This document shows, one piece after another, positions 8,092 through 17,221 of a stretch of DNA of 42,259 nt. Every line of letters starts with the position of its first letter. Position 1 is the first letter of the stretch. The notes below the pieces were generated by a model. That model was not told the DNA's origin, ran no database searches, and worked only from the letters and a program-made list of their open reading frames with translations. The DNA is from Acidobacteriota bacterium (GTDB taxonomy: Bacteria; Acidobacteriota; Terriglobia; Bryobacterales; Bryobacteraceae), in contig VFZU01000046.1 in assembly GCA_016870995.1 (NCBI GenBank), positions 1 to 42,259 of the forward strand, read 5' to 3'. Made by a program: the position numbers and the translations under genes.

Positions 8092-10981
8092 TTGATCGTT
8101 TTAGTAGGGAATGATTCATTTGTAAGACAATGCAGTACGAGTTTTCGGGTAGTAGTTGCTTTCTTTCTTTTGGCGGCGTCTGTGGCGTTGCCCCAGGCGG
8201 CTGCGATTGACGGGCAGATCGAAGGGATTGTGCGTGACCCGGCGGGGGCGGCAATCGCCAAGGCGAGCGTGAAGGCTCGCAATCTAGGTACGGGACTGGA
8301 GCGGGTGAGCGAGACGAACGAGGCCGGGTATTACCGTTTCTCGGCATTGCCCCGTGGGACCTATGAAGTTGCGGTTTCGATGAGTGGCTTCAATGCGGTG
8401 AAGCAAACGGGGATTCAGATTGGGGCGGGCACGACGGCGACGATCAATATTGACCTGGCGATTTCGAGCACGTCGACGGAGATCGTAGTGAGCGCGTCGG
8501 GGCCGGTGACGGAGCCGGGCCGGACGGATATCGGATCCACATTGAGCGCCAATCAGGTGCAGAACCTACCGCTGGTGAGCCGGATCCCGTACAACTTTGT
8601 GTTCCACCAGCCGAACGTGACGGGGCGTCCGAATACTGAGTTTGGGGTGCCTCGCAAAATCAACGCGAATGGCTTTGACGGACGCATCAACGATCAGCTT
8701 GACGGAAGCAACAATGTGCAAAGCGATCGGGCCGGGATCCGACTGATCCCGATCTCAAATACGTTTGTGGAAGAGATTGCATTTGTGTCGAATGGGTTCG
8801 CCCCGGAATTCGGCAATACCGTGGGAATGGTCGCGAACACGATCACCAAGAGTGGCACGAACGAGTATCACGGGGAAGGTGCATATTTGTTTCGCCGGAC
8901 GGACTTCAGTGCCGCGCCTGCGTTGTCAGGGCCGGGGGGGCGTTGTGCCACAGACCAACGTTGATTCGTTCTATGGCAACGGCGGGGGAAAGTTGATCAA
9001 GGACAAGCTGTTTTTCTATGGCGCGTATGAGAAGGTGAAGCGCGACTTGCCGCAGGTGGTGACGGTTTCGCCGGCAGTGTTGATGCAGATCGGATTACCG
9101 GCGAGCCTGGCGGAGCCGATTCCGTTCAATCAAAACGTGCAGTTTTTCTTTGCGAAGGGGGACTACCAGATCACGAACAACCACCGGCTGAGCTTGCGTT
9201 GGAACGGACACCGAAACAACTCGCCTTTCAACGCAGGTGGAGGCCTGCTGGTATCGACACGAACCACTAATTTTGTGGACCGCAGTCACGTGGGAGCGGC
9301 GCAGTTGGTTTCGACGCTTTCGCCGAATGTAGTGAACGAATTCCGGTTTCAGACACCTTGGAGGAGCCAGCAGCAGCAAAAGTTTTCAGGCACGGGGACA
9401 GGGCCGTCAATCAACATCACTGGTGTTGTTTCCTTTGGGCGAAGCGAAGGTGTTGGCTTTAATTTCACCGAGATGACGCCGGAGTATGGCGACAACTTGA
9501 GCATCAATTCGGGCAAGCATAGCTACAAGTTCGGATTCACGATGCGGCATATTCGGGACCAGCAGGTACAGGCGACTTTCGGGCGTTACACGTTCGCGAA
9601 TATCCAGAGCTATCTGGATGAGAGGAATGGAGTGAATCCGCGTTCCTATCAGAACTATACGCAGACGATTGGGGAACCTGTGATCCGGTACAACTCACTG
9701 TTCTCAAGCTTCTTCGCGCAGGATACGTATAAGCCGAAGCCGAACATCACGCTAACTTATGGATTGCGCTATGACGTCTACAGAATGCCGAGCGCAAATT
9801 CGAAGTCACCTTTCGGGGCATCGCAGCAGTTCCGAACGGACCGCAATAACTTTGCGCCGAGGGTTGGATTCTCCTGGGAATTGGGCAAGTCGCAGAAGAC
9901 CGTGGTTCGCGCGAGCGCGGGGATGTTTTATGATCCGCCGCAAACAGATGGATACCGAAGGGCGTTGCTGAATCATGGCACGGGGATTTTTCTGCAGGTG
10001 ACAAACCCGATCTTGAACCCGGCGTTTCCTGCCTTATTGACGAGCCTGCCGACGGGAGCAAATCTACCGACGCAATCCGTGGATACGATCTCACCGGACT
10101 TCGCAACTCTGTATTCTGGCAATTCCAACGTGAGCGTGACGCGAGAGATCGCACCGAAAACAGCGATTACGGCAACCTATCTGTTTACGCGCGGCAATCG
10201 ATTGCCGCTGTACCGGAACATCAACTTGCTGGCGAGCGGAAACCAGCTGGCCGATGGCCGGCCGATCTGGATCTCCACGGCAGGACAGCGCGTGGACCCG
10301 CGGTTCAACAATATCCTTTCAGCAGAAAGCGCGGGGCAGTCGACTTATGCGGGCGGGACGCTAACGCTGAATCGGCGCTATGGGCGCGGGTTTGAATTGT
10401 TTGGAAGTTATACGTGGTCCCATGCGATCGACGATGCGCCGGAGCATAACAACATCGACTCGGGAGCGTTCTTCTTGAGCGATCTTTCGAACCGGAGAAG
10501 AGATAAGGGTAACTCGCTGACGGACCGCCGGCACTCACTGCAGCTTGCGGGAGTGTACGAGCCCGACTTTACGTTTGAGAACAAGTTGGCGAAGTACCTG
10601 ATCAAGAACAACTGTCTTGGGTTTACGACGACGGCGATTTCCGGGGATGTATTCAACATCGGCTCGAACCGGGTATTGAATAATGACCAGGCAATGGGTG
10701 TGACGTTCCAGAGGCCTTTGTTTATTGGGCGCAAGACATACCTTGGCCCGGCAACTTATCAGCTCGATGTACGGTATTCAAGGATCTTCCCGATCCGTGA
10801 GCGGATGCGAGCGGAGTTCTTCGCCGAATCGACAAACCTGCTGAATCGGACCAATGTGACTGGCGTAAACACGGCGGCGATGGTGGATACCGCGGGCCTG
10901 ATTACAGCCCAACCCAGCTTCGCATGGACTTCAGCAATCGACCAGCGGTTGATCCAGTTGGGGCTGAAGTTTAGTTTTTAG
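8092..10981 (+). pseudogene. TonB-dependent receptor with carboxypeptidase-regulatory-like N-terminus, frameshifted at a G7 run
   Basis: An outer-membrane receptor of about 960 residues, read in two frames. Frame one runs from TTG 8092 and has a signal peptide (FFLLAASVALPQAAA). A CarboxypepD_reg domain follows (GQIEGIVRDPAGAAI, GYYRFSALPRGTYEV), then a plug region. At 8934-8940 a run of seven G moves the barrel into the next frame, which continues without a stop to LGLKFSF and a terminal Phe typical of outer-membrane barrels. Deleting one G restores SGPGGVVPQTNVDSFYG. No ATG exists in frame near the start, so TTG is the best choice. It ends in an 11-bp convergent overlap with the beta-lactamase gene. 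The substrate is unknown. Large families of such receptors are usual in Acidobacteriota. Confidence 0.85.
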
Positions 10982-11942
10982 ACAGCTTGAAGTTGAGAAT
11001 GGCAGCGCGGGTGATGTCGGCAATGGCTTTGGCGTTGCTCGATTCGGATTCGTAAGAGTCACCAATAAAGGCGACGATCGCGACTTGAGTGCCATCGGGG
11101 GCAATGAGAATGCCGACGTCGTTGGTGGCGACGGTGAGACCTTTCCACGTGCTGCTGGTGCCGGTTTTGTGAGCGACACGCCACCCGTTCGATAAACCTG
11201 CTTTGAGCCGATCCTGCCCGGTTTCCGCGAGCTCAAGGACTTCGAGGAAGTACTTGGTCGAAGCGGGGGAAAGGAGCTTGCCCTGGGCGAGACGGATGAG
11301 GAGATTGGCCATTCCCGCCGGAGTTGCGGTATCGCGGATCTCATTCTGGTAAGCCTTTTGGGCTTTGTCACGGGCGTCTTCGGGGAGCGCTTTGATCGCA
11401 GCGTCGAAGACCTTGGGGTCAAGAAATTCCGGACGCCACTTGAGGCCAAAGATTTGGGCCTGCAGATCGCGTTCTGTGCGGTCTAAACGAACGCCGGAGA
11501 GGCCTTTGCGCTTCAGGAAATCTGCAACGACGGATGGGCCGCCGAGGCGATCGATGAGAATGTCGGCAGCAGCGCTGTCGCTGTACAAGTTGGCGGAGCG
11601 GATCAACTCGTCGATGGTCGTCTCGTAACCATCAGGGCCGACTTTCCTGGAGATGGGCTGAACGAAGACGCTGAGGTCTTTCTTATAAATGCGGAATTTG
11701 GTGTCGAGCTTCCAACCCTTGTTGTCGACGGCATCGAGAGCAGCGAGGCCGACGAGCATCTTCATGACGCTCTGGATCGAGAAGCGTTGATCCCCGAGAT
11801 TGCAGACTGGCGGTTTTTCGGCAAGTTGGACGCAGGCACCGATGCGGCCTTTGAATCTGCTCGAGAGCTTTTGGAAGTCTGATTTCAGGGCAGCCTCATC
11901 GAGAGAGGCTGCGGTAATGAGAATTGCTAGTGTCGCGATCAC
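10971..11942 (-). CDS. Class A (PER-like subgroup) serine beta-lactamase
   Basis: A 323-residue exported serine hydrolase. It has a short hydrophobic leader (IATLAILITAAS), the SxxK motif SVMK (Ser58, Lys61), SDS at 121-123 in place of the usual SDN, an omega-loop Glu157 in RTERDLQ with Gln161 at the usual Asn170 position, and KTG at 259-261. About 50 residues separate the omega-loop glutamate from the conserved DTATP segment, longer than in TEM-type enzymes. The start is GTG 11942, which overlaps the stop of the upstream dehydrogenase as GTGA. A longer frame from 12065 would lie mostly inside that gene. It probably hydrolyses beta-lactams, but position in an envelope operon leaves a role in wall turnover possible. 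Confidence 0.85.
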   Translation of the reverse strand: MIATLAILITAASLDEAALKSDFQKLSSRFKGRIGACVQLAEKPPVCNLGDQRFSIQSVMKMLVGLAALDAVDNKGWKLDTKFRIYKKDLSVFVQPISRKVGPDGYETTIDELIRSANLYSDSAAADILIDRLGGPSVVADFLKRKGLSGVRLDRTERDLQAQIFGLKWRPEFLDPKVFDAAIKALPEDARDKAQKAYQNEIRDTATPAGMANLLIRLAQGKLLSPASTKYFLEVLELAETGQDRLKAGLSNGWRVAHKTGTSSTWKGLTVATNDVGILIAPDGTQVAIVAFIGDSYESESSNAKAIADITRAAILNFKLSKN

Positions 11943-13237
11943 AGCGTCACGATTTTGGAAGACTTGAACTTCTTGAGGGCGTTGCGCGTATCGACGATGA
12001 GCTTTGAAACTTCGATCGCTTTGGCGTAATCGAGGTTCGTATGGTCTGTGACAACAACCACGCAATCGGCGTCAGCGCAGGAGGACAGCATGTCTTGCGA
12101 TTCGAGTTTGTGGTTTTCGACGCGGAGGCTCGGGATGAAGGGGTCCGAATAGGAGACGTTGGCACCGCGCTGGATGAGGAGGTGCATGATATCGAGGCCA
12201 GGAGATTCACGGACGTCGTCGATGTCCTTCTTATAGGCCATACCCAGGATGTGCACTTTGGAGCCGCGGAGGGGCTTCGAGTGGTCATTAAGGGCGTTCT
12301 GAAGCTTGTCGACCACAAAATGAGGCATCTGGCCATTGATGTAGCCCGCAAGTTCGATGAAGCGGGCCTCGATACCGGATTGTTTGGACTTCCAGCTCAG
12401 ATAGAAGGGATCGATTGGGATGCAGTGGCCGCCGAGGCCAGGGCCGGGATAAAAGGGCATGAAGCCGAAGGGCTTGGTGGCGGCGGCGTCGATGACTTCC
12501 CAAACGTTGATGCCCATGCGGCCGCACATGATCGCCATTTCGTTGACCAGACCGATGTTGATCATGCGGAAGGTGTTCTCGAGAAGTTTGACCATTTCGG
12601 CGACCTTGGTGCCGCTGACCGGGACGACATGATCGAGGGCACAGCCATAAAAAGCGGCGCCAGCTTCCGTGCAGTTGGGGGTGTGGCCGCCGACCACCTT
12701 AGGGATGTTGCGGGTTTGGAATTGCTTGTTGCCAGGATCGACACGCTCTGGCGAGAAGCAGAGGAAAAAGTCCTCGCCGACCTTGAGACCGCCTTGTTCG
12801 AGCTTGGGGAGCACGAGTTCTTTAGTGGTGCCGGGGTAGGTGGTGGACTCGAGGATGACCAGCTTGCCCGGGCCGAAATTTTCGGCGATGGACTGGACGG
12901 CCGAATTGACGAAGGTCATGTCCGGGTCCTTTGCCTTCGACAAGGGTGTGGGGACGCAGATGTTGATCGTGTCGAGGTCTTGAATTTTGGAGAAGTCGGT
13001 AGTGGCGTCGAGCTTGCCGGATTCGACCAGAGGCTTGAGAACCGAGGTAGGGATGTCCTGAATGTAAGACTCGCCCTTGTTGATCTTGTCGGCTTTGCGT
13101 TCGTCGATATCGAGGCCGGTGACATGAAAGCCGGCGTGGGCGAATTCAACGGCAAGAGGCAGGCCGACGTATCCCAGGCCGACAACGCCGACGCGCGCGG
13201 TCTTCAGTTTCAACTTTTCAAGCAGTTCGTTTTTCAT
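11939..13237 (-). CDS. Nucleotide-sugar dehydrogenase (UDP-GlcNAc/UDP-ManNAc 6-dehydrogenase type)
   Basis: A 432-residue NAD-dependent oxidase of UDP-sugars to uronic acids, a four-electron step supplying surface polysaccharides. The Rossmann motif is GVVGLGYVGLPLAVEFAHAG. The catalytic cysteine lies in GPGLGGHCIPIDPFYLSWK, which is more typical of the WbpA/WecC group than of UDP-glucose dehydrogenase. The C-terminal UDP-binding domain includes HILGMAYKKDIDDVRESPG. It starts with an ATGA overlap on the DapF-like gene and ends with a GTGA overlap on the beta-lactamase gene. The exact UDP-sugar cannot be told from the sequence. Confidence 0.9.
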   Translation of the reverse strand: MKNELLEKLKLKTARVGVVGLGYVGLPLAVEFAHAGFHVTGLDIDERKADKINKGESYIQDIPTSVLKPLVESGKLDATTDFSKIQDLDTINICVPTPLSKAKDPDMTFVNSAVQSIAENFGPGKLVILESTTYPGTTKELVLPKLEQGGLKVGEDFFLCFSPERVDPGNKQFQTRNIPKVVGGHTPNCTEAGAAFYGCALDHVVPVSGTKVAEMVKLLENTFRMINIGLVNEMAIMCGRMGINVWEVIDAAATKPFGFMPFYPGPGLGGHCIPIDPFYLSWKSKQSGIEARFIELAGYINGQMPHFVVDKLQNALNDHSKPLRGSKVHILGMAYKKDIDDVRESPGLDIMHLLIQRGANVSYSDPFIPSLRVENHKLESQDMLSSCADADCVVVVTDHTNLDYAKAIEVSKLIVDTRNALKKFKSSKIVTL

Positions 13238-14046
13238 TGTTCTCTGTAAAGGAAATGACCAGTGGTTGTGATTTCAGCAGGCCCTAGGAGATAGATCGCC
13301 TCTTCCCAGGAAAGCTTTAGGATTCCGGCGGGGGTATGGACCTCAATCGGGCCCTGGACCAAGCCGCGCAGAACGCTTGCAGCCATGGCACCGGTGGAGC
13401 CAGTGCCTGAGGAATTAGTGACGCCGACGCCGCGCTCGAAGAAGCGGACATCGATGGCGCTGGGCCCAAGGACGCGGATGAAACTGACGTTGGTGCGCTT
13501 TGGGAAGCGGGGATGGACTTCAATCGCAGCGCCAACGGCGGCCCAATCGAAATCGAAATTGTCGACGAAGACGGCGCACTGGGGGTTGCCAACGTCGATA
13601 ATCGTGCAATTGAAGGATTGACTGTGAATGTCGAGAGTGGCTTCGAGATCCCCCTCCATCAGGCGAGGGAGGCCCATATTCATGAGGATGTCGAAGTAAT
13701 TCTCGTCCTGATGAGTGATGCGCATGGTTTTGAGGCCGGCACCGGTGAGAATGGTGATCTCAGGGCCTTTGGCCTTGCCATTGAGGATGGCCCAGGCGGC
13801 AGCGCAACGAGTACCATTGCCGGACATTTCCACCTCGCCGCCGTCGGGATTGAAGAGGCGGATGCGGATATCGGCTCCTTGTTCGCCGGGTGAGACGAGA
13901 AGCCAACCGTCGGCTCCAGCGCCGGAATTGCGATGGCAAATCGCGGTTGCGAGCGAATTGAGACTGGCAACCGGGGGCATGTCGGGCTGCCAGGTGAGGA
14001 GGAAATCGTTGAGCGCACCGTGCGCTTTTGTGAAGGGGATGTTCAT
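13234..14046 (-). CDS. Diaminopimelate epimerase-like protein lacking both catalytic cysteines
   Basis: A 270-residue protein with DapF architecture: an N-terminal substrate segment (HGALNDFL), NPDGGEVEM before the first catalytic loop, VGNPQCAVFVDN in the middle, and FERGVGVT before the second loop. True DapF uses two cysteines, in MCGNG and ACGTG, to move the alpha proton. Here the codons are TCC and TCA, giving MSGNGTRC (Ser75) and SSGTGSTG (Ser213). Substrate-loop residues such as Glu204-Arg205 remain. It may be an inactive homologue, an enzyme with different chemistry, or a serine-using epimerase. I chose ATG 14046, which overlaps the glycosyltransferase stop as ATGA. An upstream start at 14064 lies inside that gene. 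Confidence 0.85.
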   Translation of the reverse strand: MNIPFTKAHGALNDFLLTWQPDMPPVASLNSLATAICHRNSGAGADGWLLVSPGEQGADIRIRLFNPDGGEVEMSGNGTRCAAAWAILNGKAKGPEITILTGAGLKTMRITHQDENYFDILMNMGLPRLMEGDLEATLDIHSQSFNCTIIDVGNPQCAVFVDNFDFDWAAVGAAIEVHPRFPKRTNVSFIRVLGPSAIDVRFFERGVGVTNSSGTGSTGAMAASVLRGLVQGPIEVHTPAGILKLSWEEAIYLLGPAEITTTGHFLYREQ

Positions 14047-15539
14047 TTGCCGGATCGGCGCCACACCTCAATGACTGGTGCGTGCTTCAATGATATTAGT
14101 TTCACACAGCGATAGGGCAGGCCGAGGGCGCGCGCCCTGGCCATTGCGCCGCTGGCCTTATCTCCAGACTGGGCGATGACCCAGGCAGTGTCGAGGAAGA
14201 GATCCGGGCGGGCGGTAGCGCGATCAAATTCGAGTTTGTCGCCCTGGTGGATGGATTCGGCGATGGGGATGCTGGCCTGTTCGAGGATGGCGGTGAGGTC
14301 GCCGAAGGGCATGAGGATGCCAGTGCCGGGGTCGTATTGCTTTTTGAGCATGGTTGCGACCTCCGCCGTCCAGGCGCGGCGGGATTCGGAGTTAACGGTA
14401 CCTTCGCGTTTGACGATGACCGGCTCGAAGGCGAACCAGGAGAGCGCGATTGCGGGAAGGGCCCAGGTGAGGCGGGGAAGCATACTGGCGAGGGCGGCGG
14501 TACAGATCGTGAATAAAGGCAGGGGGGCGAGGGCGTAGCGCGAGTTGTAGTGGCTAAACGGGAAGACCTCGGGGATGAAGATGGGGGTGTCGCCGGATTG
14601 GAGGCTCCAAATGTAAAACAAGGGCGAGACGGCAGCGAAGGCAAAGGGCCAGAAGGCGCGGCGGATGAGGGCGGGGATGACGCCCAAGACGGCGATGAGG
14701 ATCAGGGGCCAGCCGCAGACGGCCTTGATGGCGTAGCCAAACTGGCGGGCGGCGGCGAGCCAATCGTGGGCACCGGGATAGGGTGCTTGTTTCTGAATGT
14801 CTTTGGCGGAGCCCACGCCGCGGTAGAACTCAAGCCAATCCGAGTAAAGAAATTGATTGTGGCCAAACCAGAAGAGGGGGCCGATGGCTGCGACTGTGCT
14901 GAAGGTGAAGCAGAGGCGGAGGCCGCAGGTGGCGAGGACGTACAAACCGGCTGCGGGGAGGAGGATCCAGCCCTCGTAACGCGTGAGACTGGCGGCGCAG
15001 CCGCAAAGGCCGGCGAGGATGGCATCGGTGCACGAGTTACTCGTTTTGAGGCGGACGGTGAACAGAAGCAGGCCAAGCGCAGAGGCGAAAAAGATCGACT
15101 CGGTCATGGGAGTCGATTGAAGGTAGAGGAGGTTGGGCTGTGTGGCAAAAACGGCTGTGCCGGCGAGCGCGCCGTGGTCGCCGAAGAGTCGGCGTAGGGT
15201 TGCGAAGAGGAAGGTTCCAGCGATGACCCATGCGATGGCGGCGGGGATGGCTCCGGCGAGGCCTGAATGCCAGAGTTGGTTATCGGTGGCAAAGGGCATC
15301 ATCAGCAGGTGCGGCAAGGGGAGCCAGACGGTGCCGATTTGTTCATAGCCGGGGTTGCAGCCATCGAAGAGGCGACGGGCGATGTTGAGATGGGCGGCGG
15401 CGTCGCCGTAGTGAAGGGCGGTGCCGTCCCACTGGATGAAGGCAACTGCGGCGGCGCTGATCAGCGAGAGCAACGCCGCGCAGAGGAAGATGGGGCGTTT
15501 AGAACGCGGTGAACTTCCGGAAGTCTTCGAAGCGGGCAT
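14043..15539 (-). CDS. Multi-pass membrane glycosyltransferase (GT39/ArnT-like, RgtA-type fold)
   Basis: A 498-residue protein with about ten hydrophobic segments. After the first helix comes a loop with YGDAAAHLNIARRLF and QIGTVWLPLPHLL, matching the acidic catalytic loop of polyprenyl-phosphate-sugar dependent glycosyltransferases. The last ~120 residues are a soluble periplasmic-type domain. An open frame extends to 15809, but its extra residues are an out-of-frame copy of the kinase gene. ATG 15539 is preceded by AGGAG (complement of 15544-15548) and overlaps the kinase 3' end by 41 bp. It probably moves a lipid-linked sugar onto an envelope acceptor. Donor and acceptor are unknown. Confidence 0.78.
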   Translation of the reverse strand: MPASKTSGSSPRSKRPIFLCAALLSLISAAAVAFIQWDGTALHYGDAAAHLNIARRLFDGCNPGYEQIGTVWLPLPHLLMMPFATDNQLWHSGLAGAIPAAIAWVIAGTFLFATLRRLFGDHGALAGTAVFATQPNLLYLQSTPMTESIFFASALGLLLFTVRLKTSNSCTDAILAGLCGCAASLTRYEGWILLPAAGLYVLATCGLRLCFTFSTVAAIGPLFWFGHNQFLYSDWLEFYRGVGSAKDIQKQAPYPGAHDWLAAARQFGYAIKAVCGWPLILIAVLGVIPALIRRAFWPFAFAAVSPLFYIWSLQSGDTPIFIPEVFPFSHYNSRYALAPLPLFTICTAALASMLPRLTWALPAIALSWFAFEPVIVKREGTVNSESRRAWTAEVATMLKKQYDPGTGILMPFGDLTAILEQASIPIAESIHQGDKLEFDRATARPDLFLDTAWVIAQSGDKASGAMARARALGLPYRCVKLISLKHAPVIEVWRRSGK

Positions 15540-16413
15540 CGATCTCCTGACGGGTGAGAGTGCGGAAGCGGTCGACGCCGAACTTTTCGCAGCAGAAGCT
15601 GCCCATGACGCTGCCGTAGATGACGGCGCGGTGGAGTTCGTGGGGGTCGATTTCGCCCTTGAGGTCGAACCCGCGTTCAGCGAGATAGCCGACGAAGCCG
15701 CCGGCGAAACAATCGCCTGCACCGGTGGGGTCGAAAACGCTCTCGAGCAGGTAGCCGGGAACCATGAAGAGGCTGTCGGGACGGAAGAGCATGGCGCCGT
15801 ATTCGCCACGCTTGATGACGAGGTTCTTCGGGCCCATGGCCATGATCCTGGCAGCGGCTTTGCGGAGGTTTGATTCTCCGGAGAGAAGCTTGGCTTCCGA
15901 GTCGTTGATGAGGAGGAAGTTCCAGTCGGCGATGGTGGCGAGGAGTTCCTGGCGGAAGTCGTTGATCCAGAAGTTCATGGTGTCACCGCCGCAGAAGCGG
16001 AGGTTGGCCATCTGGGCGAAGACCTGCTTCTGCAGAGCGGGCTGGATATTGCCGAGGAAGAGGTAAGGCTGCGACTTGTAGACTTCGGGCAGCTTGGGCG
16101 AGAAGGTGGCGAAAACGTTGAGATCGGTGCGCAGGGTGGTGCGGTCGTTCATGTCTTCGGAATAAACACCTTGCCAGAAGAAGGTTTTGCCGTCGGCGAG
16201 TTCGAGACCTTCGAGATCAATGCCGCGGGAAGCGAGAAGCTCGCGGTCGGCGGCATCGAAATCGTCGCCGACCACGGCGACAATTTTGGGCGAAGTGAAA
16301 TAGCTGGCCGATAAGGCGATATAGGTGCAGGCGCCGCCGAGCATGCGCTCGACTTTACCGTGGGGAGTTTCGACTCCATCGTATGCAACGGAGCCCACAA
16401 CGACTAATGACAT
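15499..16413 (-). CDS. PfkB family sugar/nucleoside kinase
   Basis: A 304-residue ribokinase-fold kinase. Family signatures are an N-terminal substrate region with MLGGACTYIALSAS and VGDDF, and the C-terminal anion-hole motif DPTGAGDCFAGGFVGYL with its catalytic aspartate. The start is ATG 16413 (MSLVVVGSVAYDG). The frame stays open upstream but the added residues are not family-like. It is first in a five-gene operon in which every junction overlaps. This suggests a sugar-phosphate role in making an envelope sugar, but PfkB substrates cannot be assigned from sequence alone. It diverges from the phosphoesterase gene across 67 bp. Confidence 0.85.
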   Translation of the reverse strand: MSLVVVGSVAYDGVETPHGKVERMLGGACTYIALSASYFTSPKIVAVVGDDFDAADRELLASRGIDLEGLELADGKTFFWQGVYSEDMNDRTTLRTDLNVFATFSPKLPEVYKSQPYLFLGNIQPALQKQVFAQMANLRFCGGDTMNFWINDFRQELLATIADWNFLLINDSEAKLLSGESNLRKAAARIMAMGPKNLVIKRGEYGAMLFRPDSLFMVPGYLLESVFDPTGAGDCFAGGFVGYLAERGFDLKGEIDPHELHRAVIYGSVMGSFCCEKFGVDRFRTLTRQEIDARFEDFRKFTAF

Positions 16414-16480
16414 CGTTTCATTGTAGCGGAGCGAGGCGAGTCGGCTGGATCGCGCAATACTGAAGAAAGAGAGAATCTCA

Positions 16481-17221
16481 CTGCGACAGCTCATCCTCAG
16501 CGATATCCATGCCAACCTCCACGCGCTGTATGCCGTTTTGAGCGACGCCGAAGGCCTTTATGACGAGATCCTTTGTTGCGGAGATCTGGTGGGGTATGGG
16601 GCTTGCCCAAATGAAACGGCGGAGTGGGCGAGCCAGCACGTCAAATGTGTTGTGCGAGGAAACCATGACAAGGTAGCGGTTGGACTCGACAACACCGAGG
16701 GCTACAACTCCGTAGCGGTGGCGAGCCTTAGCTGGACCGCAGTCCAATTGAGCCCGGCGAGTCGAGCTTATTTGACGGCCATGCCACGTGGACCGATTGC
16801 ATACGGCAATACCTGGCTGATGCATGGGAGCCCGGTGGATGAGGATTTGTATCTGGTGCAGGAATGCGATGCGAAGGGGATGGAGCAGTTTCTGCCGGGG
16901 CCGGTGAACTTCTTTGGCCATACGCACCGGCAGGGTGGGTTTGCGTACTTGCGCAAAACGGTTATGGTTTTGGAGCCAGTGCCCGAGTTGGAAAAGAAAG
17001 CGGAAATCGCTCTCGACCCGCACGGAATGTATTTGATCAATCCCGGAAGTGCGGGACAGCCGCGCGATGGTGACTGGCGGGCTGGCTACTGCATTTATGA
17101 CAACGAGGAAGGGCTGGTGACGCTATATCGTTCACGATATGACGTCGAATCTGCGGCGAAGGTGATCCTGGCCGCCGGGATGCCAGAATTGCTGGCGCGG
17201 CGGCTGTACCTAGGGAAATAA
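16481..17221 (+). CDS. Calcineurin-like metallophosphoesterase with a probable CTG start
   Basis: A protein of about 246 residues of the YfcE/MJ0936-like family. All metal-ligand blocks are present: LILSDIHAN (Asp8, His10), CGDLVGYG, RGNHDK, WLMHGSP and FFGHTH. A TTG at 16538 would remove the essential first DxH block. The frame upstream is open back to a TAG at 16424 and has no ATG, GTG or TTG before that block. CTG 16481 sits exactly where homologues start (MxxLxLSDIHAN) and is preceded by AAGAAAGAGAG. The function is probably hydrolysis of a phosphodiester or phosphomonoester, substrate unknown. Confidence 0.82.
   Translation: MRQLILSDIHANLHALYAVLSDAEGLYDEILCCGDLVGYGACPNETAEWASQHVKCVVRGNHDKVAVGLDNTEGYNSVAVASLSWTAVQLSPASRAYLTAMPRGPIAYGNTWLMHGSPVDEDLYLVQECDAKGMEQFLPGPVNFFGHTHRQGGFAYLRKTVMVLEPVPELEKKAEIALDPHGMYLINPGSAGQPRDGDWRAGYCIYDNEEGLVTLYRSRYDVESAAKVILAAGMPELLARRLYLGK

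Follow-up and report, generated by a model that had tools for sequence, protein, structure and literature searches.

Serine at both catalytic cysteine positions of a diaminopimelate epimerase homolog in Acidobacteriota

The window analyzed here, a stretch of 42,259 nucleotides from a member of the Bryobacteraceae (Acidobacteriota), encodes a homolog of diaminopimelate (DAP) epimerase, DapF, in which both catalytic cysteines are replaced by serine. We consider it somewhat probable that this protein is the putative DAP epimerase of its genome and active with the serine pair, and we infer that it processes DAP fast enough to be useful; an altered function, as suggested in a preliminary description of the locus, is possible but comes second to this reading. 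DapF is the textbook case of cofactor-independent racemization and a drug target owing to its cysteine pair, and the enzyme concerned is needed for both the cell wall and lysine in this soil bacterium and many relatives. Either answer would be new: Active Ser/Ser forms would show the chemical requirement accepted so far to be incorrect or incomplete, and inhibitors directed at thiols would not harm these organisms; inactive forms would mean that many Acidobacteriota have an unknown enzyme for making meso-DAP. Databases hide this question because the TIGR00652 model scores Ser/Ser proteins well over its cut-off and names them DAP epimerase. To our knowledge, no characterized member of the family has serine at both sites, and a pair of oxygen bases would be new; our search of the open-licence full-text literature found no description of a DapF that has the serine pair by nature.

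A serine pair at the catalytic positions of a DapF homolog

The gene and its neighbors on the same strand are listed in Table 1. Alignment with DapF of E. coli K-12, to which the window protein is only 31% identical, places S81 and S219 at C73 and C217, respectively, and the motifs MSGNGTRC and NSSGTGSTG are both found in the protein; this bears out the original claim that both acid/base cysteines have become serines, with TCC and TCA as the codons. In the same alignment, H159 corresponds to Q162, a change that is absent from the preliminary description. As DAP-contact set we used eight positions (N11, N64, N75, N157, N190, E208, R209, and S/T219 in E. coli numbering), and these same residues are given as the DAP contacts of Anabaena DapF (PMC12039745). 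All eight are retained in the window protein, with N11, N64, N75, N157, N190, E208, and R209 corresponding to N19, N72, N83, N160, N192, E210, and R211, in agreement with the earlier statement that the substrate-loop residues are kept. The overlaps with the open reading frames on both sides that had also been noted are 4 bases long.

Table 1. Features of the dapF locus in the window.
Feature	Position	Strand	Evidence or remark
DapF homolog, Ser/Ser replacing the catalytic cysteine pair	13234..14064	(-)	ATG start at 14046; alternative GTG at 14064
Codon TCC, Ser81 (Ser75 from the ATG), place of E. coli Cys73	13822..13824	(-)	Alignment and model
Codon TCA, Ser219 (Ser213 from the ATG), place of E. 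coli Cys217	13408..13410	(-)	Alignment and model
Codon of Gln162, place of E. coli His159	13579..13581	(-)	Coordinate computed from ORF start
PMT_2 glycosyltransferase-like membrane protein, upstream neighbor	14043..15809	(-)	PF13231, 38.4 bits vs. 26.1
Nucleotide-sugar (UDP-sugar) dehydrogenase, downstream neighbor	11939..13237	(-)	TIGR03026, 443 bits vs. 189.8
PfkB-type carbohydrate kinase, same gene run, farther upstream	15499..16515	(-)	PF00294, 83.7 bits vs. 25.8
Class A beta-lactamase, just downstream of the UDP-sugar dehydrogenase gene	10971..12065	(-)	NF033103, 214.4 bits vs. 200

By its profile scores, the window protein belongs to the DAP epimerases (TIGR00652, 199.6 bits vs. a cut-off of 114.65; PF01678, 149.8 bits vs. 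34.7). An AlphaFold2 model built from 17 sequences (pLDDT 95.0, pTM 0.90) has the two-domain DapF fold, with the cyanobacterial (Anabaena) DAP epimerase 9mro as its top Foldseek match (E 9.9e-30, 36% identity) and chains of DAP epimerase or O-ureidoserine racemase as all of the best 26 matches; the feature missing is the catalytic cysteine pair. In the model, S81 is the last residue ahead of helix 82-94 and S219 the last ahead of helix 220-232. Assignments to the proline racemases and hydroxyproline epimerases (NF010576, PRK13969 proline racemase, 21.2 bits vs. a cut-off of 556), to the bifunctional DapF/glutamate racemases (NF038284, 73 bits vs. 350), or to PhzF-like proteins (Pfam gave PF01678 alone at E up to 0.001, and PhzF chains found by Foldseek are 14% to 16% identical) were rejected.

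The DAP pathway of the genome and of other Acidobacteriota

The genome from which the window comes is 98.99% complete and contains an operon-like run of genes for an M20 DapE-like protein, asd, lysC, dapB (122.7 bits vs. a cut-off of 122), dapA (332.2 vs. 206.15), and dapD (NF008808, 301.6 vs. 204); the M20 protein scores under every NCBIfam cut-off shown. It also encodes LysA (508 bits) and a MurE (473 bits) with a DNPR motif, which we take as the mark of a DAP-adding enzyme. A profile search of this genome gave no match for DAP dehydrogenase, TIGR00652 has a single match, and PF01678 exceeds its cut-off only in the two halves of this same gene. A second DapF with cysteines, for which a search had been suggested, is thus not found in the genome. 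The other weak PF01678 hits are C31, presumably a proline-racemase-like protein as judged from its motifs MCGHG and SPCGTGT, with both motif cysteines kept, and a hit of 13.7 bits with two stops; both were dismissed as second DapF. We further discounted the LL-DAP aminotransferase route because the protein matching TIGR03540 does so with 418 bits, under the cut-off of 593.25, and has its top NCBIfam score for alanine transaminase, likewise under the cut-off; TIGR03542 has no match in this genome. With the DAP genes present and neither DAP dehydrogenase nor a second DapF found, a step from LL- to meso-DAP is needed, and the window protein is the only visible candidate for it.

A similar picture emerges from 37 Ser/Ser genomes tested across the phylum, among which DapB is present in 26, LysA in 33, and both in 25. 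Each of these 25 has a single TIGR00652 match, and DapA scores over its cut-off in all 19 of them that were searched. DAP dehydrogenase is absent from all 45 Ser/Ser-only genomes searched, and the total of 70 genomes searched yielded one match over the cut-off (G196) and a weak one (G002), both in Cys/Cys genomes. DapB is not found (E up to 1e-20) in 11 of the 37 Ser/Ser genomes and 5 of 13 Cys/Cys genomes, nor is DapB_C (E up to 0.001) in those 11, so that the Ser/Ser protein persists in genomes with no visible de novo route to DAP. Four of the 11 were searched for DapA, which is lacking in G096, G120, and G047 and represented in G062 by matches under the cut-off only. The MurE proteins of these organisms carry DNPR wherever the motif was readable (29/29 of 31 fetched), DapB-less genomes included. 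Besides G096, genomes with a DNPR MurE and no DapB match are G004, G005, G047, G062, G102, G120, G146, G219, and G267 with Ser/Ser and G002 and G010 with Cys/Cys forms. Many Acidobacteriota possibly have a DAP source that is not recognized by these searches; on the diamino acid of their cell wall, our search of the open-licence literature for chemotaxonomy gave nothing usable.

The strongest genomic point against a role in DAP metabolism alone is G096, which we take as Chloracidobacterium validum (loci L016, L253, and L268). This genome keeps a Ser/Ser DapF (L016), LysA (406.2 bits vs. 297.9), and a DNPR MurE, yet has no match for DapA or DapB, and C. validum is described as requiring L-lysine for growth on experimental grounds (PMC12816986).

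Distribution and origins of the Ser/Ser form

We aligned 206 DapF-like rows comprising the window protein, 30 loci from a phylum search, 75 loci from a search of genome contigs, which was made with the window protein and therefore leans toward its kin, and 100 fetched stretches, minus the loci of the own genome and three without hits, plus the second piece of one split gene. The catalytic positions are Ser/Ser in 114 of these rows, Cys/Cys in 81, and Cys/Ser in 5, while 6 have a gap at one site; removal of three repeat rows (L207, L208, and L150) leaves 113, 79, and 5, respectively, of 203. Holders of the serine pair are mostly Acidobacteriota and also Zixibacteria (including 32 and 8 of the named loci, respectively). 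We typed 125 genomes of the phylum, which were selected for family coverage and thus are not a random sample. The Ser/Ser form alone was obtained from 69 of them and the Cys/Cys form alone from 48, while 4 have Cys/Ser, 2 have both forms, and 2 gave fragments, so the pair is common in other Acidobacteriota, where a look for it had been suggested. Two genomes counted as Ser/Ser, G106 and G162, each have one further TIGR00652 match outside this typing. Sorted by family code, 40 of 77 families have only Ser/Ser and 29 only Cys/Cys. TIGR00652 matches 280 of the 297 sampled genomes of the phylum, 257 of them over the cut-off, and more than one match line was obtained in 15, some of which are pieces of one gene.

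A few loci stand apart. At L068, a zixibacterial dapF lies in two reading frames of one contig, a frameshift or a decayed gene whose pieces we left unjoined. L196-L204 (family f23), L193, L194, and L201 encode divergent DapF-like proteins of the Cys/Cys type in which Asp replaces Asn64 and for which most TIGR00652 scores are under the cut-off, and the two typed f23 genomes G065 and G252 have a Ser/Ser copy in addition to the divergent Cys/Cys one.

The Ser/Ser form arose more than once, inside fixed gene slots. A single origin was rejected (p-AU 1.03e-06) in a test with the two catalytic columns masked that gives no direction of change; its 61 rows (31 Ser/Ser and 30 others) were chosen by us, the tree was a quick one, and the tested group was picked in knowledge of the first tree. 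On a quick tree of 200 rows, the Ser/Ser label requires 5 changes, and starred branches force 4 of these. In the slot hslV-hslU-(fn3-like gene)-dapF, both hsl genes lie upstream in 26 loci, where the Cys/Cys form is found 21 times, the Cys/Ser form 3 times, and the Ser/Ser form twice; one of these 2 Ser/Ser proteins belongs to G001, a genome with no DapB or LysA match. The slot with an aminotransferase gene upstream comprises 13 loci (10 with Ser/Ser and one each with Cys/Ser, Cys/Cys, and a split gene), of which 12 are named loci, mostly of Zixibacteria, and one (L122) comes from the phylum sample. Each of the five mixed rows has Cys at the first site and Ser at the second, and the reverse arrangement does not occur, suggesting on these few rows that the second cysteine may be lost first.

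Genomic neighborhood

The position of the window gene between a glycosyltransferase gene and a nucleotide-sugar dehydrogenase gene had led to the proposal of a role linked to wall or surface sugars. In 45 fetched loci, a homolog of this glycosyltransferase is encoded upstream; 44 of them are Ser/Ser, and the remaining one is truncated past its first Ser. The UDP-sugar dehydrogenase gene is downstream in 25, all of them Ser/Ser and with the same glycosyltransferase upstream. In contrast, the neighboring family f2 of the same class has an ldcA-like gene (PRK11253, 127 bits, under the cut-off) and then mpl (TIGR01081, 441.4 bits vs. 388.7, scored in one locus, L145) directly downstream in 12/12 fetched loci, and still other genes are found elsewhere. 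Since the downstream genes vary across Ser/Ser loci, the sugar genes are the company of one lineage and no mark of function, leaving the proposal unsupported. As peptidoglycan-recycling genes, ldcA and mpl next to dapF point to DAP-containing peptides. Upstream, htrA is found in 18 other Ser/Ser loci. The listed frame of the glycosyltransferase in the window overlaps that of the PfkB-type kinase by 311 bases, which makes a true start at a more downstream position probable for the glycosyltransferase.

Conservation and selection

All eight DAP-contact positions are intact in 111 of the 114 Ser/Ser rows vs. 5 of the 81 Cys/Cys rows, a difference that is mainly due to valine at the place of Asn160 in most of the latter, and the other seven positions are intact in 67 of the 81. 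This valine, at the place of the distal contact Asn157 of E. coli, is seen in 60 of the 81 Cys/Cys rows (e.g., L110, L116, and L006). The gene is under purifying selection, with dN/dS (NG86) of about 0.04 to 0.14 in 8 of 9 pairs of relatives, those with usable dS. The catalytic positions hold only Cys or Ser in rows with letters at both sites, and serine is encoded by AGC at the first site of 10 of the 114 Ser/Ser rows and at the second site of 2 of the 5 Cys/Ser rows. Gln occupies the place of His159 in 48 of the 114 Ser/Ser rows vs. 10 of the 81 Cys/Cys rows, but there is no strict link between this change and the loss of the cysteines because 59 of the 114 Ser/Ser rows keep His. Residues commoner in Ser/Ser than in Cys/Cys rows are Cys43 (112/114 vs. 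59/81), Gly48, Gly131, Asn160, and Gly214, and of these Cys43 and Asn160 also occur in the aligned Anabaena DapF. Comparison of the 114 Ser/Ser with the 81 Cys/Cys rows revealed no new acid, base, or thiol specific to the former that could replace the missing bases.

Discussion

The case for an active epimerase is made by the single DapF in a genome with an otherwise complete DAP route, the retained contacts, and purifying selection, and it is strengthened by ldcA and mpl in f2, by the hslV-hslU slot that is common to Cys/Cys, Cys/Ser, and Ser/Ser forms, and by a serine-containing relative: a natural and functional 4-hydroxyproline epimerase of the proline racemase superfamily is described with a Ser93/Cys pair (PMC4113996). 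Together with an aspartate/glutamate racemase that, according to a review, has one Cys replaced by Thr (PMC8142540), this natural enzyme provides precedent for one oxygen base. Against an active enzyme we counted the nearly dead Cys-to-Ser mutants discussed below, the DapB-less Ser/Ser genomes, the loss of His159, G001, and the DapE-like M20 protein under the cut-offs, though the point on DapB is weighed down by the Cys/Cys genomes that lack DapB as well.

A serine-pair mechanism can be envisaged on the basis of the model and of work on cysteine-type enzymes. In DapF, helix ends are described to stabilize the thiolates, with LL-aziDAP bonded through Cys75 and D,L-aziDAP through Cys224 (PMC12039745). 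In the window protein, LL-DAP from the dapA-dapB-dapD branch would bind the closed cavity via the retained Asn, Glu, and Arg contacts, and S81 and S219, located at the N-terminal ends of helices 2 and 4, would flank the alpha carbon from either side. The oxygen of one serine, with activation from the helix end and backbone amides or with a water as intermediary, would abstract the alpha proton, which the second serine would return from the far side. More broadly, we propose tentatively, and with somewhat less conviction than the assignment of the window protein, that many bacteria may run the essential epimerization of LL- to meso-DAP by such a thiol-free serine pair, as a cofactor-independent two-base reaction that was reached more than once. 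If true, this would overturn the need for a thiol/thiolate pair, and the enzymes would be insensitive to thiol reagents and to aziridine-DAP inhibitors.

Alternatively, the window protein might be a catalytically dead DapF that serves as DAP-binding regulator, chaperone, or complex partner while an unrelated, unrecognized epimerase or racemase makes meso-DAP, which we consider rather unlikely. Cys-to-Ser mutants of this fold are reported as nearly inactive: those of PddB have less than 0.1% activity left, in line, according to that work, with M. tuberculosis DapF among others (PMC8225329), and activity of HisR C67S and C209S is greatly reduced (PMC11602996). Ligand contacts without catalytic atoms are the expected look of a DAP-binding pseudoenzyme, and E. 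coli DapF has a second role as a partner, with an RppH-DapF complex among the solved structures (6d13). However, a dead DapF demands a second unseen enzyme in all 25 genomes that combine DapB and LysA with just one DapF, of the Ser/Ser type, a Cys/Cys form accompanies Ser/Ser only in two typed f23 genomes, and idle catalytic positions should drift and not alternate between Cys and Ser alone.

We regard it as quite improbable that the protein is instead a cofactor-independent racemase, epimerase, or dehydratase for another substrate, with serine chemistry like that of the 3-hydroxyproline dehydratases (Ser/Thr). Such a function would fit the persistence of Ser/Ser proteins without DapA or DapB (e.g., in G096, G047, and G120), and proteins annotated as DapF turned out to be racemases of histidine (PMC11602996) or diaminobutyrate (PMC8225329), while a Ser90/Thr256 enzyme of the proline racemase superfamily is described as a dehydratase of 3-hydroxyproline (PMC4113996). 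What speaks against another substrate is that the distal DAP contacts Asn72, Asn160, Asn192, Glu210, and Arg211 are kept no worse than in Cys/Cys rows and that every readable MurE has DNPR, also in the DapB-less genomes. An assembly or sequencing error is a practically negligible explanation, and the earlier caveat to this effect can be laid to rest, given that 114 of 206 rows, which come from independent genomes and metagenome-assembled genomes, show the pair, with differing serine codons at both sites and in relatives 28% to 76% identical to the window protein.

Comparison with known enzymes

The window protein shares with the DapF enzymes of Anabaena (9mro), E. coli (4ijz), and H. influenzae (1gqz) the fold, length, TIGR00652 score, DAP-contact residues, location of both acid/base positions at helix ends, and pathway company, and it differs from them by Ser at both catalytic Cys and Gln for His159. 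The same substitution at one site each is known from the C73S and C217S mutants of H. influenzae DapF (2q9h and 2q9j), which match our model at Foldseek ranks 11 and 17, but these are single-site laboratory constructs intended to slow catalysis, whereas the window protein has both changes naturally and conserved. PddB (diaminobutyrate racemase; PMC8225329) and HisR (histidine racemase; PMC11602996) are described as DapF-like proteins initially taken for DapF; unlike the window protein, they keep the Cys pair, and its change to Ser costs activity. Finally, the Ser/Cys 4-hydroxyproline epimerase and the Ser/Thr 3-hydroxyproline dehydratase resemble the window protein in having a natural serine as acid/base at the first site, but they belong to another family with other substrates, and the enzymes of the proline racemase superfamily presented in the relevant parts of PMC4113996 include none with serine at both sites.
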